Source of the DNA: a bacterium
Lineage (GTDB): Bacteria; Planctomycetota; Planctomycetia; Planctomycetales; Planctomycetaceae
Assembly: GCA_016125225.1 (NCBI GenBank)
Contig: WGME01000003.1
Location: 620,001-684,000, forward strand
Length of the DNA stretch: 64,000 nt
Direction: 5' to 3'
A program made the translations under genes and the position numbers. Below are positions 21,790 through 30,108 of the stretch, in pieces. Under the pieces are notes generated by a model. The model was not told the DNA's origin. It saw nothing but the letters and a program-made list of their open reading frames with translations, and did not search any database. Each line of letters opens with the position of its first letter. Position 1 is the first letter of the stretch.

Positions 21790-22788
21790 TCAGCGTGAAC
21801 CGCCTGGGCCTGCGAGTTCAATCAGAAGCCGTTCCATCTGAATCCGTTCCGGCAGACGACTGCCCCCCTTGAGGCCATGGTCGGCGGTAACGATCGCCGT
21901 GATGATCCGCTCGGCATGATTGCGGCCGATCCGCTTGAGATATCGCCCGGCTAACCCTAGATCGCGCGGGAAAACGCCCGCTGACTTCAACGCCTGATCA
22001 AAAGGTTGGTGTCGAGAGAGTTCGGTGGCCATGGCCAGTTTGCGGAATACAAAGCTGATGCCCCCCAACAGTTTTTGCGGAGCCTCACCCGCGACCAGCA
22101 GTTGATCGAGCGCGGCCAGGGCATCGGGCAGCCGGCCATCGCGGACGGCGTCGGTCATGGCCCAGGTGGTTTCGGTCCGCCAGCCCCCCACCAGCACCCG
22201 GACATCATCGAGCGTGATGCGTTGGCGATCGCCTACATAAGAGGCGACTTTGGAGAGTTCCTGATCGAGCAACCCGGGTTCTTCGCCGACTAGTTCGACC
22301 AGCAAGGCAGCCGCATCGCGATCCAGCTTCACCTGATAATGCTGGGTTGCCAGGTCGTTGATCCAACGCAATAGTTCCACGCCCTTCAGTGCACTGCAAT
22401 CGATTTCTAACCCTGTTTTCGTGACCTGCTTTGCAATGCGAGTCGTCTTCGGCCAGGAAACGGCATCGATCACCAGCACGGACTTCTTCGCCGGAGCTTC
22501 GACATATTTCTCCAATCCCGCGCGATGCGCCGAGACAAACTCATCGGCTTCGTCAACTACCACCAGACGCCGGTCGCCCCACATCGACAGGGTCCGCAAT
22601 TCATCGGTCACCGATTGCAGATCGGTCTCCTTGCCGACAAAGCGGGTCAGTGACGTGTCATCATCGTTGATCACCTGCTGCCTGAGTACCGCCAGCACAC
22701 TCTGTTTGAAGTGCCGCTGATTGCCGGTGAGCACGATCACCGCCGGGAACTCAGCGGGCGGTTGTTTCAGAAACTCCACCGCATGCAT
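21790..22788 (-). CDS. holA: DNA polymerase III subunit delta
   Basis: This is the clamp-loader delta subunit, which opens the beta sliding clamp. The 332 residues follow HolA: an N-terminal AAA-like domain (VIVLTGNQRHFKQSVLAVL, then MWGDRRLVVVDEADEFV) without a Walker A motif, as expected for delta, a central LLDQELSKVASYVG segment and a helical collar domain (APQKLLGGISFVFRKLA, then RIQMERLLIELAG). It is transcribed on the minus strand after the HAD phosphatase, with 60 bp between them, and may share its transcript. Confidence 0.92.
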   Translation of the reverse strand: MHAVEFLKQPPAEFPAVIVLTGNQRHFKQSVLAVLRQQVINDDDTSLTRFVGKETDLQSVTDELRTLSMWGDRRLVVVDEADEFVSAHRAGLEKYVEAPAKKSVLVIDAVSWPKTTRIAKQVTKTGLEIDCSALKGVELLRWINDLATQHYQVKLDRDAAALLVELVGEEPGLLDQELSKVASYVGDRQRITLDDVRVLVGGWRTETTWAMTDAVRDGRLPDALAALDQLLVAGEAPQKLLGGISFVFRKLAMATELSRHQPFDQALKSAGVFPRDLGLAGRYLKRIGRNHAERIITAIVTADHGLKGGSRLPERIQMERLLIELAGPGGSR

Positions 22789-22848: not shown

Positions 22849-23451
22849 CTAAGACTTCGAAATCCGTCGCGGTGTGTAGATGCTGCGAACATCAATCACC
22901 TGCATGCCGGCCGCATAGGCGGCCTGCACGCCGGGGTCGGTGTCTTCATAGGCCAAGCACATCTGCGGGGAAACATTCAACCGCCGGGCCGCCTCCAGAT
23001 AGATATCGGGTTCGGGTTTATGCCGGGTAACATCTTCACAGGTGACGATCGTCTGGAAGAGTTGGTCGATGCCGATGTGTAACAGGATCGCATCGACAAT
23101 GCGTCGCAAGCCTCCCGATGCTACCGCCATCGGCAGTTGCCCATGATGCCGGTGGGCGACCTCAACTACGGGGTCAATCGGCCGGACCAGATTCAGTGTT
23201 TCCTCGAACAAGGCTTCCTTCTCGATCGTGATCTGGTCGGCAGTCACCGGGGAGGTCGGCGGGGTCCGATCCAGCAGGAATTGTGCAACCTGGGTCGTCG
23301 GCCAGCCCCCCATGGCATAGAACTCGTCTTCATCGAAGGGGATGCCGTATCGCTCCATGATGGTAACCCAAGCCTCATAATGGCTGGGCATGGTGTCTGC
23401 CAAGGTGCCATCGCAATCAAAAATGATGGCTAGGGGTTCAAACGTCAGCAT
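22849..23451 (-). CDS. HAD-superfamily phosphatase (beta-phosphoglucomutase-like)
   Basis: This 200-residue cytoplasmic hydrolase belongs to HAD subfamily I with an alpha-helical cap. Motif I is FDCDGTLADT with the nucleophile aspartate and the acid/base aspartate two residues on; motif II is AVASGG; motif III is the lysine of RHKPEPDIYLEAA; motif IV is YEDTDPGVQAAYAAGM. It should act on a small sugar phosphate, but the substrate is unknown. The ATG at 23451 has AGGA seven bases upstream. It lies upstream of holA on the same strand, and a phosphohexomutase-like gene starts divergently 176 bp away. Confidence 0.9.
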   Translation of the reverse strand: MLTFEPLAIIFDCDGTLADTMPSHYEAWVTIMERYGIPFDEDEFYAMGGWPTTQVAQFLLDRTPPTSPVTADQITIEKEALFEETLNLVRPIDPVVEVAHRHHGQLPMAVASGGLRRIVDAILLHIGIDQLFQTIVTCEDVTRHKPEPDIYLEAARRLNVSPQMCLAYEDTDPGVQAAYAAGMQVIDVRSIYTPRRISKS

Positions 23452-23627
23452 CAACTCTTCCTGAAGACATCCAGATTCCGTGTGAAGCTTGCAGGCCGTC
23501 TTACCAAGAAAACTTCAGAAGTTCCCTGCAGGTGGCCCGCAGCAGTCTGTTCTACCCGATTGAACCGGCATTGACCAATCTGCGCGAGTCGATGTACATC
23601 TTATGCCGCTGATTTCCGCGAGGGACC

Positions 23628-24890
23628 ATGACGCCTCTTCCTCAGGTGCCGTTGCCGCCGCAGACTTTTTACACCTGTCCGAATGAACGGCATGCCATTC
23701 CGCGGTCCGTGCATCTGGCGAGGTTGGGGCGTTCGTATGCGGCTTGCCGCGATTGTCCGCATCGGCACGATTCCGGCCTCGTTCCCGCGTCTGTCGTACA
23801 GCAGATGGAAACGACTCGCGCCAGTTTGTCGTCGCAGATTCGACTGGTTCCGACGGGTCTCCGAGGCCGGTATCTGAACGACATTGTCCGGCAGGACGGT
23901 TATCGCTGGGGCTGTGCCGTCGCGGGAATTGCCTGGAGCGAACGGCCCTGGACGGGACGCTTCAGTGACTCGCTTGCCACTTCAGCACCACGCCCCGACG
24001 TCTCGCAACCCACAGTGCCGGTGATTGTGGTGGGATACGATGAACGTCCTAGTTCCCCCGACTTGGCGATTGGGGTCGTCACCGGTTTGCGACATGCCGG
24101 GATCTGCGTGCTCGATATCGGCATGGTAACGCGGCCGATCTGGCATTTTGCGGTGTCAACGCTCCAGGCAGATGCCGGGGTGCTCATCACCGGCGCCGGT
24201 TGCGATGTGAACTGGACGGGGTGCGATCTCATCGGCCGTGCCGGAACGCCGTGGCGGCAAGATCAGGAACTGGCCGTCTGGTTCGAGCGTCTGCAGCAAC
24301 CGGTTTCACGGCCCGTGCGCACCGCCAGCAGTGTGCAGGCATTGGCCGTCTCGGTCCCTTACCAAGACCATGTGCGGCGACACTTTCATGCTCTGCGGCC
24401 GTTGCGGCTGGCAGTCGCGGTTTCCTCACAGACTGTGGCCTATCATCTGGAACACGTCTTCCGAGGATTGCCGGTCTCGCTGGAATTGAGCGTCGATGCC
24501 GATTGGCGTGATCCTCGCGATCTTCCGGCACGGATTGCCAGTTTGCCAAATGAGTCGCTCACCGATGCAGTGGTGTGGATCGCCGAGGACGGTGAGCACT
24601 GCAGGGTGTTTGATGCCGACCGGCGACCATTGTCCGGCGAGTGCGTGGCTCAGTGGTTGCAGGAAGGGGTGCAGTCTGGTGCCATCGATTTGCCCGTCGC
24701 TCCGTTGGTGTCGAGTCTGACCATTGGATGGCAGAATGAGACAGTTCGACAGGCTGGTCCGATGTCGCCGGGTAACCGTGTCGACAGCGATCCCGTTCCC
24801 TGCGATGCGATTCTGACAATCGCGGCCATTCTGCAGGCCATGAGCTGGAGCGATGCGCCGCTGGCCGAACAGTTAACTGGCGTGGTCTGA
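23628..24890 (+). CDS. Phosphohexomutase-fold pseudoenzyme with an N-terminal Cys/His cluster
   Basis: The middle of this 420-residue protein follows the alpha-D-phosphohexomutase fold: VPTGLRGRYL (residues 74-82) matches the usual TDGIRG start, and VVGYDERPSSPDLAIGVVTGL and LDIGMVTRPIWHFAV match domain 1. At the active site the usual TASHNP is TGAGCD (188-193), so the phosphoserine is Ala190. The metal loop DGDADR is DGEHCR (321-326). The fourth domain seems to be missing. It cannot work as a normal mutase. The N-terminal 50 residues have C17, C40, C43, H45 and H47, a possible zinc site. A role as sensor or partner protein is inference. The ATG has GAGGGA close upstream. Confidence 0.8.
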   Translation: MTPLPQVPLPPQTFYTCPNERHAIPRSVHLARLGRSYAACRDCPHRHDSGLVPASVVQQMETTRASLSSQIRLVPTGLRGRYLNDIVRQDGYRWGCAVAGIAWSERPWTGRFSDSLATSAPRPDVSQPTVPVIVVGYDERPSSPDLAIGVVTGLRHAGICVLDIGMVTRPIWHFAVSTLQADAGVLITGAGCDVNWTGCDLIGRAGTPWRQDQELAVWFERLQQPVSRPVRTASSVQALAVSVPYQDHVRRHFHALRPLRLAVAVSSQTVAYHLEHVFRGLPVSLELSVDADWRDPRDLPARIASLPNESLTDAVVWIAEDGEHCRVFDADRRPLSGECVAQWLQEGVQSGAIDLPVAPLVSSLTIGWQNETVRQAGPMSPGNRVDSDPVPCDAILTIAAILQAMSWSDAPLAEQLTGVV

Positions 24891-25467: not shown

Positions 25468-26811
25468 TCACCCCACGGCAGCCCGAACGAAGCTCATCGC
25501 CTCGGAACATAATTCCTTGGCGGCAACATCGTCGGGAGCTTCCGAGATCACCCGCAGAATGGGTTCGGTATTACTCGCCCGCACCTGCACCCACCGGTCC
25601 GACCAGTCGAGCCGCAGGCCATCTCCTTCGCTCGCGCGGGCATCGGGAAAGGCCCGGCGGAGAGCCGTACAGGCGGCGGTCACTTTTTCCCGCGGGCAGG
25701 TCACCTTGTCTTTGATGATGGTGTACTTCGGCAGCGAGTCGACCCATTCGGCGAGTGTGCCATGGCGTTCGAGCATCCCCTGTAATACGTAGGCCATGCC
25801 GACGAAACTGTCGCGGACATAACCGACCTTGGGTTCAATCACGCCCCCATTTCCTTCACCACCAATGAGCGAGTCGACTTCCCGCATTTTCGCGACCACA
25901 TTCGCTTCGCCCACATAGCTGCGGTGGAATTCGCACCCATGCTTCGCGGCAATGTCGGCAGTCACCCGGCTGGTCGAACCATTGACGACCACCGGACCTT
26001 TGGCATGAGTTAAAACATGGTCGACACACAACGCCAGTGTCAGTTCTTCACCTATGTAGCGGCCGGTGTTATCGACGATGGCCAACCGATCGGCATCGGG
26101 GTCTTCCGCGAATCCGACATCGGCCCCCAAGGCTTTCACGGCATCACACAACGAGGTCAAATTCTCTTTGAGTGGTTCGGCGGGATGCTCGAACTGCCCA
26201 TCCGGCACGCCGCCGAAGACTGAGACATCGCACCCCAAGGCCGCGAGCAGCTTCGGACCGAGGATCGCTCCCGACCCATGATTGACATCGAGAACCACCT
26301 TGAATTTCCGCTGCTTGAGCTTCGCCACATCTACTAATGGCAGCACTTTGTCGAGATGAATTTGCGCGGCGTCTTCAAATTCGCTGACGGTCCCCAGGCC
26401 ATTCCAGGGGCGATAGTTCGCGGGCTGCTCCAACGCGGCCAGTAGTTTTTCGCCCAGCGCCTGATCAAAGACGCCCCCTAAGGCAGAAAAGGGTTTCAGA
26501 CCGTTCCATTCAATGGGGTTATGGCTCGCCGTGAGTTGCACGCCCCCCGCCGCTTTAAGGTGTTGCACCAGCACGCCACAGGTCGGAGTGGAGGCGATGC
26601 CGAGATCGATGACTTTGCAGCCGGTCGACAGCAGCCCGCTCAACACGGCATGTTTGAGCATCTCCCCCGTGCTGCGGCCATCACGCGCGATGACCACGGT
26701 GCCGCCATCGAACAGTGTCCCCAATGTCGCCGCAAAGCGGGTGACATATTCGGGATCGAGTCCGTCGCCGAGAACACCGCGAAGACCGGAGATGCTGAGG
26801 ATGCGTGGCAT
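25468..26811 (-). CDS. glmM: Phosphohexomutase, phosphoglucosamine mutase-like
   Basis: This 447-residue enzyme interconverts hexose or hexosamine 1- and 6-phosphates, most likely glucosamine phosphate for cell-envelope precursors. All active-site elements are intact: SGLRG at the start, TASHNPIEWNGLKPF with the phosphoserine (about residue 95), the metal loop DPDADR (about 236-241), the sugar-binding loop GGEGNGG and the C-terminal phosphate loop RASNTEPILR. The sugar loop GEGNGG, rather than GEQSGH or GEMSGH, resembles archaeal-type mutases. The start at 26811 gives the right N-terminus. It is convergent with the thioesterase gene and lies about 580 bp from the end of the pseudoenzyme gene that shares its fold. 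Confidence 0.88.
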   Translation of the reverse strand: MPRILSISGLRGVLGDGLDPEYVTRFAATLGTLFDGGTVVIARDGRSTGEMLKHAVLSGLLSTGCKVIDLGIASTPTCGVLVQHLKAAGGVQLTASHNPIEWNGLKPFSALGGVFDQALGEKLLAALEQPANYRPWNGLGTVSEFEDAAQIHLDKVLPLVDVAKLKQRKFKVVLDVNHGSGAILGPKLLAALGCDVSVFGGVPDGQFEHPAEPLKENLTSLCDAVKALGADVGFAEDPDADRLAIVDNTGRYIGEELTLALCVDHVLTHAKGPVVVNGSTSRVTADIAAKHGCEFHRSYVGEANVVAKMREVDSLIGGEGNGGVIEPKVGYVRDSFVGMAYVLQGMLERHGTLAEWVDSLPKYTIIKDKVTCPREKVTAACTALRRAFPDARASEGDGLRLDWSDRWVQVRASNTEPILRVISEAPDDVAAKELCSEAMSFVRAAVG

Positions 26812-26853
26812 GGTAAGGTCGATGGTTAAGAGTGAATGGTCGATGGTGAAAAG

Positions 26854-26971
26854 CCGCCACCGCTGAGTGGCGGGCCTTTTCGTCTTAGCCCCCGGTGAGT
26901 CACCGGGGGCCGATGGAGTGCCCGATATCAAATGAGGAACCGACCCCCCGTCATTGACGGGGGGCTAAGAC
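26854..26971. repeat. Composite palindromic element with three hairpins
   Basis: Between the phosphohexomutase start and the plsC stop there are three adjacent hairpins: one at 26854-26874 (ccgccac / gtggcgg), a near-perfect palindrome at 26888-26910 (gcccccggtga / tcaccgggggc), and one at 26944-26965 (ccccccgtca / tgacgggggg). The last two are enclosed by an outer 11-bp inverted repeat, gtcttagcccc at 26882-26892 and ggggctaagac at 26961-26971. No T-run follows. The layout resembles REP/BIME-like intergenic repeats. Confidence 0.75.
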
Positions 26972-27057: not shown

Positions 27058-27726
27058 TCAACGCTCATCCCGCCACGATTGTGCGGCGGCGGCACACTCA
27101 ATGATGCGCCCGCGGACGAAATGGACCAAACCCTCTTCGTTGCCTTTGCCGAAGCCGTCGAGTTGTTCACGGGGAATCGCTTCGCCGAAAACGACCCGCA
27201 CTTTGCCCGGCCACGGGAACGGCGTCCCTTTGGGATAGCACTCGTACGCCCCGGCAATGCCGACGGGAATGACCGGAACCTTTGTCCGCCGCAGCAAAGC
27301 GAGGAAACCGGGCTTCATCTCGCCGACCGTGCCGTCCAGCGTGCGGGTTCCCTCGGGAAATATGCCCACATAGAAACCGCCGTCAATCCGGCGGATCGCT
27401 TCGCGAATGCTCGTGGTGCTGGCGGCTTCGCGGTTAATCGGCATCACATAGGTGTTCCGCAAAATGTGACCAATGATCGGCACACGGAACAGGTTATCAC
27501 GGGCGAGGTAACTCACCGGCCGGGTGAGCGGCAGACCGACCAGCAGCGGGTCGACATAACTCTGATGGTTGACCAGCAGCAACGCCCCACCGGTGGTCGG
27601 CAGGTGTTCAATCCCGCGAGCCCGATATCGCAACCAGAAACAGAAGAAATTCTGCAGGATGAACTGAATCGTCCGCCAATATACATTGCGACGAACGGGG
27701 TCGGGCAGCGGGGGAATTTCTGGCAT
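27058..27726 (-). CDS. 1-acyl-sn-glycerol-3-phosphate acyltransferase family (PlsC-like)
   Basis: This membrane-associated acyltransferase of 222 residues transfers a fatty acyl chain to a lysophospholipid, probably lysophosphatidic acid. The catalytic HX4D motif is NHQSYVD (about residues 53-59), and the second block FPEGTRTLDG binds the substrate phosphate; PVIPVGI is block IV. A hydrophobic segment near residue 20-35 (FILQNFFCFWL) should hold it to the membrane. It starts divergently from metY. In the cell it would act just before CdsA, also encoded in this window. Confidence 0.9.
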   Translation of the reverse strand: MPEIPPLPDPVRRNVYWRTIQFILQNFFCFWLRYRARGIEHLPTTGGALLLVNHQSYVDPLLVGLPLTRPVSYLARDNLFRVPIIGHILRNTYVMPINREAASTTSIREAIRRIDGGFYVGIFPEGTRTLDGTVGEMKPGFLALLRRTKVPVIPVGIAGAYECYPKGTPFPWPGKVRVVFGEAIPREQLDGFGKGNEEGLVHFVRGRIIECAAAAQSWRDER

Positions 27727-29321: not shown

Positions 29322-29352
29322 CGTGATATCGCGCTTCACGGAGGGAGCACTC

Positions 29353-30108
29353 ATGACGGTCTACGCTGTGATACCGGCCCGGCTGCAATCGACCCGGTTG
29401 CCACGGAAGCTGCTGCTCAACCAGACGGGCAAACCGCTGATTCAATACGCTTGGGAAGCGGCGTCGCGGGCGAAAAGTCTCGATGGGGTCTGCATCGCCG
29501 CCGATGATGTCGAGATCGAAACCGTGGTCAAAAACTTTGGCGGCCGTTGCGAGATGACCGGCGACCATCCGTCGGGGACCGATCGCATCGCTGAAGTGGT
29601 GCAGCGGTCTCTCTCCGATGCCGATATCATCGTCAACGTGCAGGGCGATGAGCCGGAGCTCGACCCCGCAGCGATTGATCAACTCGTCGCGGTGATGCAG
29701 GCCAATCCGGCAGCCGAAATGGCGACGTTGGGCACGCCGATCAAATCGCTGGAGGTTTTGCAGGCCCCGTCGTGCGTGAAAGTGGTCTGTGCGGCAGATG
29801 GCAAAGCCCTCTATTTCAGCCGGTCGATGATTCCGTTTGTCCGCGATCAGGACCCGCAAACCGTGCTGAATGCGCCCAACAGCCCTTGGCTGCTGCACAT
29901 CGGGATTTACGCCTACCGCCGCGATTTTCTCCTGTCGATCACCCAGAAACCGGTTTCGCGACTGGAACAACTGGAAAAACTGGAACAATTGCGGGCCCTG
30001 GAAGCCGGTGCCCGCATTCAAGTGGCGGTTGTCGAGCGGCACTCCGTTGGCATCGACACGCCGGAAGATTATGCTCGATTCGTGGAGCGGCAGCGCACCA
30101 ATCGTTGA
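29353..30108 (+). CDS. kdsB: 3-deoxy-manno-octulosonate cytidylyltransferase (CMP-Kdo synthetase)
   Basis: This cytoplasmic enzyme activates Kdo with CTP to CMP-Kdo for the inner core of lipopolysaccharide. The 251 residues show all family motifs: VIPARLQSTRLPRKLL (CTP binding), ADDVEIETVVKNFGG, GTDRIAEV, VNVQGDEPELDP and YFSRSMIPF, with HIGIYAYRRDFL near the C-terminus. The ATG at 29353 has GAGGGAG about eight bases upstream. Presence of kdsB supports an LPS-type outer membrane. pyrG follows, which makes the CTP this enzyme uses. Confidence 0.95.
   Translation: MTVYAVIPARLQSTRLPRKLLLNQTGKPLIQYAWEAASRAKSLDGVCIAADDVEIETVVKNFGGRCEMTGDHPSGTDRIAEVVQRSLSDADIIVNVQGDEPELDPAAIDQLVAVMQANPAAEMATLGTPIKSLEVLQAPSCVKVVCAADGKALYFSRSMIPFVRDQDPQTVLNAPNSPWLLHIGIYAYRRDFLLSITQKPVSRLEQLEKLEQLRALEAGARIQVAVVERHSVGIDTPEDYARFVERQRTNR

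Follow-up and report, generated by a model that had tools for sequence, protein, structure and literature searches.

Pseudoenzymes are known as a kind, also within the α-D-phosphohexomutase superfamily. According to an excerpt of PMC8573169, GlmM without its domain 4 still binds and inhibits the c-di-AMP cyclase CdaA. The herring protein PGM5 is described in a part of PMC7761743 as inactive and able to bind the substrate glucose-1-phosphate, and a part of PMC9426568 reports a distinct phosphohexomutase family that produces Glc-1,6-BP. In the openly licensed PMC literature, the titles and abstract beginnings of the matches listed mention neither an inactive planctomycete phosphohexomutase nor a Cys/His module like the one described below, and this module is uncatalogued in Pfam and NCBIfam.

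The locus described here is located in a stretch of 64,000 nucleotides of planctomycete DNA, which is referred to as the window, and its features are compiled in Table 1. The ORF starts with an ATG that is preceded by GAGGG at positions -8 to -4. Its product was originally predicted to have a phosphohexomutase fold from which domain 4 appears to be missing, and both statements were confirmed by profile searches, structure prediction and a fold search. The Pfam family PGM_PMM_I was detected at residues 130-216 (E-value 1.4e-12), and no other Pfam family was found at E-values of up to 1. A profile of 27 homologues, taken from a first alignment of 30 loci minus three truncated ones (L019, L026, and L029), was searched against the sequences of solved structures and resulted in 25 distinct matches (E-value up to 0.01), all belonging to the phosphohexomutase superfamily. 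The best match (1.6e-43) was to PMM/PGM crystal sequences and spans domains I-III. The AlphaFold2 model, calculated from 60 aligned rows, reached a pLDDT of 86.9 and a pTM of 0.82. Its top VIA-align superposition was obtained with a PGM chain of 452 residues (Z 31.4, rmsd 2.4 Å, 304 aligned), and the matches below it were other PMM/PGM, GlmM, PGM1, and PGM5 chains. Because residues 71-420 of the model cover only residues 3-368 of this PGM chain, domain IV is missing from the window protein. The three α/β domains of the PGM fold are present in the correct order, and the protein is by descent a member of the α-D-phosphohexomutase superfamily, namely a three-domain pseudoenzyme. Three other PF02878 proteins are encoded in the genome of the window, and the string SHNP is found in the translation of all three.

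Table 1. Features of the pseudoenzyme locus; positions refer to the window.
Feature	Position	Strand	Basis
holA, DNA polymerase III delta subunit	21790..22788	-	TIGR01128, 208.9 bits (cut-off 80)
HAD hydrolase, between holA and pseudoenzyme	22849..23454	-	profile search
Pseudoenzyme CDS, 420 aa	23628..24890	+	ORF; match in 35/37 genomes of the window's family
N-terminal Cys/His module, residues 15-49	23670..23774	+	invariant residues in 60 rows
C17, candidate metal ligand	23676..23678	+	60/60 rows
H29, candidate metal ligand, Cys in module-bearing intact mutases (11/11)	23712..23714	+	60/60 rows
C40, candidate metal ligand	23745..23747	+	60/60 rows
C43, candidate metal ligand	23754..23756	+	60/60 rows
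Phosphohexomutase-like body, residues 69-420, domains I-III only	23832..24887	+	profile, AlphaFold2 model, structure alignment
TGAGCD, residues 188-193, in place of the phosphoserine loop TASHNP	24189..24206	+	alignment
AEDGEH, residues 319-324, in place of the metal loop DGDADR	24582..24599	+	alignment
Intact Arch_GlmM-type phosphoglucosamine mutase	25468..26931	-	TIGR03990 equivalog, 481 bits (cut-off 439)

For the analysis of the catalytic site, 78 pseudoenzyme rows were compared with 35 intact planctomycete mutases. The 78 rows, some of which are near-identical, consist of 74 loci from a peptide-pattern scan (described below), the window protein, two rows from further genomes and L181, a separate case, so that the clade proper has 77 members. 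L109 and L128 (<300 aa) as well as L115 and L127, the module start of which is unreadable, are not part of this set. Out of 76 columns that are invariant in the 35 intact mutases, 52 are kept in less than 20% of the 77 pseudoenzymes, and only five are retained in 90% or more. Domain IV with its phosphate-binding loop is absent in all 77 clade members. In the window protein, the four tested sequence features of an active mutase, i.e., TASHNP, DGDADR with three Asp, GE-SGH, and domain IV, are all lacking, which supports the original view of an erased active site.

In detail, Ala190 does occupy the phosphoserine position of the window protein, as had been stated, but this residue is not conserved: the column contains Ala in 27, Ser in 22, His in 11, and Pro in 8 of the 78 rows. 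Ala190 was rejected as a defining change. Homologues with an intact TASHNP motif were also looked for, and the His of this motif is present in none of the 77 clade members. The metal loop had been read as DGEHCR, which is two positions out of register with the family alignment (Table 1); the first Asp is replaced by Ala in the window protein and the middle one, D321, is the only one retained. Across the 78 rows, the middle Asp is found in 70 and the third in three. The Glu of the sugar loop GELSGH is kept in two of the 78 rows, and the His of this loop in none of the 77 clade members.

These counts bear on the question whether the protein is still an enzyme with an altered chemistry, e.g., a phosphatase or a bisphosphate synthase. 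The rows with Ser at the catalytic position and the widely kept middle Asp would agree with such an activity, as would the distinct family that makes Glc-1,6-BP, as far as it is described in the excerpt of PMC9426568. However, the TASHNP His and domain IV are lost throughout the clade, the third metal Asp is nearly always replaced, and the window protein combines Ala at the Ser position with Ala at the first metal Asp, which renders an altered enzyme quite improbable. Phosphorylation might persist in those clade members that have Ser at the catalytic site. Judged by its sequence, the pseudoenzyme is a conserved and catalytically dead derivative of a phosphohexomutase.

Besides these losses, the body is characterized by five residues (N84, R228, R231, W385, and D393) that became fixed in 91-95% of the pseudoenzymes but are seldom found among the 35 intact rows; the window protein deviates from the clade at the W385 column, where the confidence of the model is low. 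Of the old body residues, R79 (86%), D138 (97%), R140 (94%), and D321 (90%) were retained. A body of this kind might bind a phosphorylated sugar, and the N-terminal module might report the bound state to a partner, so that the protein would act as a sugar-phosphate sensor. The retention of R79, D138, R140, and D321 and the newly fixed R228 and R231 speak for this explanation, and PGM5 is a precedent for an inactive protein that binds glucose-1-phosphate, according to the part of PMC7761743 cited above. Nevertheless, both GELSGH, the sugar loop, and the loop of domain IV that binds phosphate have been lost, and a sensor is considered rather unlikely.

The distribution of the pseudoenzyme was analyzed at several levels. 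Within the window's own family, the two genomes without a match are draft genomes, and the window's genome is counted among the 35 with a match. From other families of the class, 22 genomes were searched, of which one (G040) matches over both the module and the body, 10 match in stretches of the mutase domains only and 11 gave no match. The peptide-pattern scan covered 84,980 species genomes with two patterns and resulted in 78 loci; the patterns used the His form of the module, so this number is silent on the Cys form outside the Planctomycetota. The records of these loci are labelled Planctomycetota except for L090 ("bacterium") and L124 (Chlorobiales), and the gene of L124 is identical to a Planctomycetaceae locus across 302 compared body codons. 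Because two of the scan loci (L056 and L065) carry the label Kuenenia, MAG labels need care.

The conservation of the N-terminal region was derived from an alignment of 60 rows, consisting of 59 of the 76 module-bearing scan loci and the window. Seven positions are invariant among these rows, which have 22-42% identity to the window, and all of them (C17, P18, I24, H29, R32, C40, and C43) are located in the module. The mean frequency of the top residue is 0.73 for residues 15-49 compared with 0.49 for residues 70-420, and the best 35-column stretch of the body reaches 0.64, so that the module is conserved clearly above the background. The module of about 35 residues follows the pattern C-P-x5-I-x4-[HC]-x2-R-x7-C-x2-C, to which residues 17-43 of the window protein fit exactly and which is also matched by 89 other rows. 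The original prediction had named a cluster of C17, C40, C43, H45, and H47. All five residues are present and the three Cys proved to be invariant among the homologues, but H45 and H47 vary (His in 42 and 17 of the 60 rows, respectively) and were rejected as ligands; the invariant H29 had been missed.

The pseudoenzyme is under purifying selection in Planctomycetaceae and some other Planctomycetia, as indicated by codon comparisons: dN/dS ranges from 0.04 to 0.30 for the body and from 0 to 0.24 for the module in at least 45 informative pairs (46 listed, one of them identical), many of which share a member. The loss of the catalytic motifs and of one domain might as such speak for a decaying gene without function. 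Due to the purifying selection, the presence in 35 of the 37 family genomes and the seven positions that are invariant in spite of the low identity, simple decay was rejected and is regarded as extremely improbable. These data point to a working protein with a changed function, in line with the original proposal of a protein derived from a sugar-phosphate mutase.

The four invariant Cys/His residues probably bind a single structural metal ion, for which zinc is the best candidate. Sets of four ligands, either four Cys or Cys together with one His, can also hold iron-sulfur clusters, and exactly these compositions are seen in the rows of the module. The protein could accordingly be a sensor of redox state or oxygen, with the cluster as its iron-sulfur or redox-active centre. 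The exchange between Cys and His alone and the varied partner domains of the module would fit structural zinc better, however, and a redox centre appears very doubtful. No Pfam or NCBIfam model was found over the module of the window at E-values of up to 1, and a sequence search of the PDB with the module gave only matches with E-values of 0.28 and 1, which were taken as chance. Little weight can be given to the fold search with the model of the module alone, which was weak (pLDDT 68); the best Foldseek E-value was 6.2, and no row had a Z of 2 or more.

The module was also searched in 392 Planctomycetota genomes and could be detected in 71 of these at an E-value under 1e-5 (27 from the window's family, three from f5, 22 from f48, four from f79, six from f98, and nine others); 18 of 89 genomes had weak matches only (E-values from 2e-4 to 0.01), which were set aside as probable chance. 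The gene context was read in a minority of these 71 genomes, and the following statements rest on the rows read. In 11 loci from two families (L139-L149), the module is part of an intact four-domain PMM/PGM and has Cys at the position of H29. TASHNP, DGDADR, GELSGH, and the RKS-TEP loop are present in all 11. Because 13 of 14 genomes tested from these two families contain the hydrazine synthase alpha gene, the families presumably represent anammox bacteria. Seven more fusions of module and mutase (L189-L195) are intact apart from motif changes in L190, which has TASNNP and GDLSGH, and in L192, which is without a GGE-SGH string. Three loci (L182, L183, and L186) have the module as a small ORF of its own, which sits between a TatD-like gene upstream and a mutase gene immediately downstream. 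The adjoining mutase is intact in L183, intact with TASHNA in L186, and cut by the contig end in L182.

Furthermore, the module heads two giant repeat proteins of 2753 codons (L178:9004-17262) and 1982 codons (L179:4029-9974), for which PEGA repeats and an Lcl_C end were detected with Pfam in the former and are seen by likeness only in the latter. A second dead mutase (L181:2182-4005) belongs to another family and has a module with four Cys and a degenerate domain IV. In a quick tree, it groups on a long branch with intact module-bearing mutases (support 83), and its catalysis was thus probably lost independently. In L185, the module is located near the end of an ORF of 451 aa, the reality of which is doubtful, and no module was found by pattern in the fetched stretches of L180 and L197. 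Two small module proteins (L184:1898-2479 and L188:3-686) have a Pro/Ala-rich linker and similar aromatic C-terminal ends (IYNLF and IYDYF, respectively), and no mutase was found within the 5 kb read around them. No Pfam or NCBIfam model scored above its cut-off for two stand-alone module proteins; the best sub-threshold match was Exotox-A_target (E-value 0.083, 13.3 bits, cut-off 25). Among the rows read, the His form is restricted to the dead clade, with 78 of 78 rows (two of which, L119 and L151, are one gene) compared with 0 of 11 intact rows. By its sequence record, the module can be described as a portable unit linked with PMM/PGM.

Phylogenetic trees were calculated from 63 rows and from a second set, in which 11 rows were dropped, namely the GlmM rows L156 and L159 and the rows L108, L112, L119, L121, L125, L181, L182, L196, and L213, which are long, partial or divergent. 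The pseudoenzymes form a well-supported clade (100/100), the stem of which has a length of about 2.3 changes per column. A constrained joint clade with 14 intact module-bearing rows was not rejected (p-AU 0.324), and neither was a wider group that includes modules in trans (p-AU 0.205). Because the pseudoenzymes are not nested among the intact mutases with a module in these trees, the order in which features were gained and lost is one that we infer. In the simplest reading of the sequences, a module-bearing active PMM/PGM would have come first and the form in Planctomycetia would then have lost catalysis and domain IV. Since the module also travels, its separate acquisition by the pseudoenzyme is possible.

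The gene neighborhood was compared across the loci. Among the 72 loci with an upstream flank of 900 nt or more, the window included, 36 have holA in divergent orientation within 1.2 kb; the distance is 3 kb in L114 (Pirellulales). If ORFs antisense to the pseudoenzyme gene and to holA are set aside, no neighbor is as widespread as holA. An aminotransferase, identified in L118, is located downstream on the same strand in 13 loci. A protein-kinase cluster was found in 14 loci, nine of them with the kinase downstream or overlapping on the same strand; the kinase neighbor in L076 also has a cyclic-nucleotide domain. The HAD and 4HBT genes next to the pseudoenzyme in the window were detected in none of the other loci at an E-value of 1e-6 and were rejected as conserved neighbors. 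The genes at 29323-30108 and 27058-27726 of the window were read from their translations as CMP-KDO synthetase-like and PlsC-like acyltransferase genes, which suggests an envelope gene region.

An intact mutase within 600 bp had been pointed out as well. It is the GlmM gene, the near end of which lies 577 bp downstream of the pseudoenzyme on the opposite strand. A phmmer search with GlmM found no other mutase gene in the 78 other loci, for which flanks of at most 6 kb per side were available (of 76 loci, 62 have 3 kb or more upstream and 61 have this length downstream). All 53 matches around the 78 loci and the window are pseudoenzymes except for the GlmM gene itself, comprising 51 module-bearing ORFs and L115, which is cut by the contig. 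With a best match of 64 bits compared with 1099 bits for GlmM itself, the gene was discarded as a conserved partner.

For the intact module-bearing mutases, a sugar-nucleotide epimerase/dehydratase (domain identified in L143) is nearby in all eight f48 loci and in none of the three f79 loci, and its presence near the f48 mutases agrees with the usual function of a PMM/PGM for the intact form. In all six f98 loci (L189-L192, L194, and L195), the mutase gene is divergent from dnaA. Because of this arrangement and of the divergent holA in half of the pseudoenzyme loci, a wider role was considered, in which the portable planctomycete metal module would mark PMM/PGM in cis or in trans and dock them to a partner in the cell, and the tagged enzyme would have turned, in Planctomycetia, into a free-standing regulator without catalysis that links sugar-phosphate metabolism with DNA replication. 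The six dnaA arrangements belong to one clade and perhaps go back to a single event, the links to both replication genes may reflect nothing beyond shared divergent promoters, and such a coupling is a long shot.

We favor, with moderate confidence, the reading that the pseudoenzyme is a non-catalytic binding or regulatory (adaptor) protein with a structural metal site for docking. It descends from the PMM/PGM-GlmM superfamily, without domain IV and the catalytic motifs, and is maintained by purifying selection. The four Cys/His residues would hold the single structural metal ion, likely zinc. The module is a portable unit, as it is also found, with H29 replaced by Cys, on intact mutases, as small ORFs next to mutase genes and on other proteins, and it might serve as the docking element. 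The body with N84, R228, R231, W385, and D393 might hold a partner or a phosphorylated ligand without turnover, and the output would be by binding, in analogy to the inhibition of CdaA by GlmM without domain 4. One DAC protein is encoded in the genome of the window. The 22 of 78 rows that retain Ser at the catalytic site and the weak module-only model (pLDDT 68) speak against the adaptor reading, as do the lack of nesting in the trees and the deviation of the window protein at the W385 column. The original description as a "metal-bound sensor or partner protein" was a fair guess.

If the adaptor reading is true, a widely conserved pseudoenzyme of central sugar-phosphate metabolism exists alongside extant intact relatives with the same tag, so that it can be traced how catalysis was lost and the fold reused. 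The module would be a handle for the search for partners, as a tag common to active mutases, small proteins, and PEGA-repeat proteins. If the holA and dnaA neighborhood is functional, carbon status would be connected to replication by a route that can be tested, in a phylum whose cell biology is unusual.

Compared with known systems, the window protein shares the fold and the order of domains I-III with the PMM/PGM (AlgC-type, NF007088) and GlmM enzymes. In contrast to these, it lacks domain IV, the catalytic Ser and His, a complete metal loop, and the sugar loop, and it has the Cys/His module in addition. PGM5, a vertebrate paralogue of PGM1, is likewise an inactive member of the superfamily that is conserved for a non-enzymatic role. 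According to the excerpt of PMC7761743, PGM5 resembles PGM1 overall and binds glucose-1-phosphate, whereas the window protein has neither the domain IV nor the sugar loop of such a PGM1-like architecture with an intact substrate site and carries the additional module. In the GlmM-CdaA system, domains I-III suffice for binding and inhibition, as stated in the cited part of PMC8573169, and the window protein also consists of domains I-III; GlmM differs in its enzymatic activity in the cell and in the absence of a Cys/His module. The module-bearing intact mutases (L139-L149 and L189-L195) have the same spacing of the N-terminal module as the window protein and differ from it by their four domains, their intact motifs (L190 and L192 excepted), and the Cys in place of H29.
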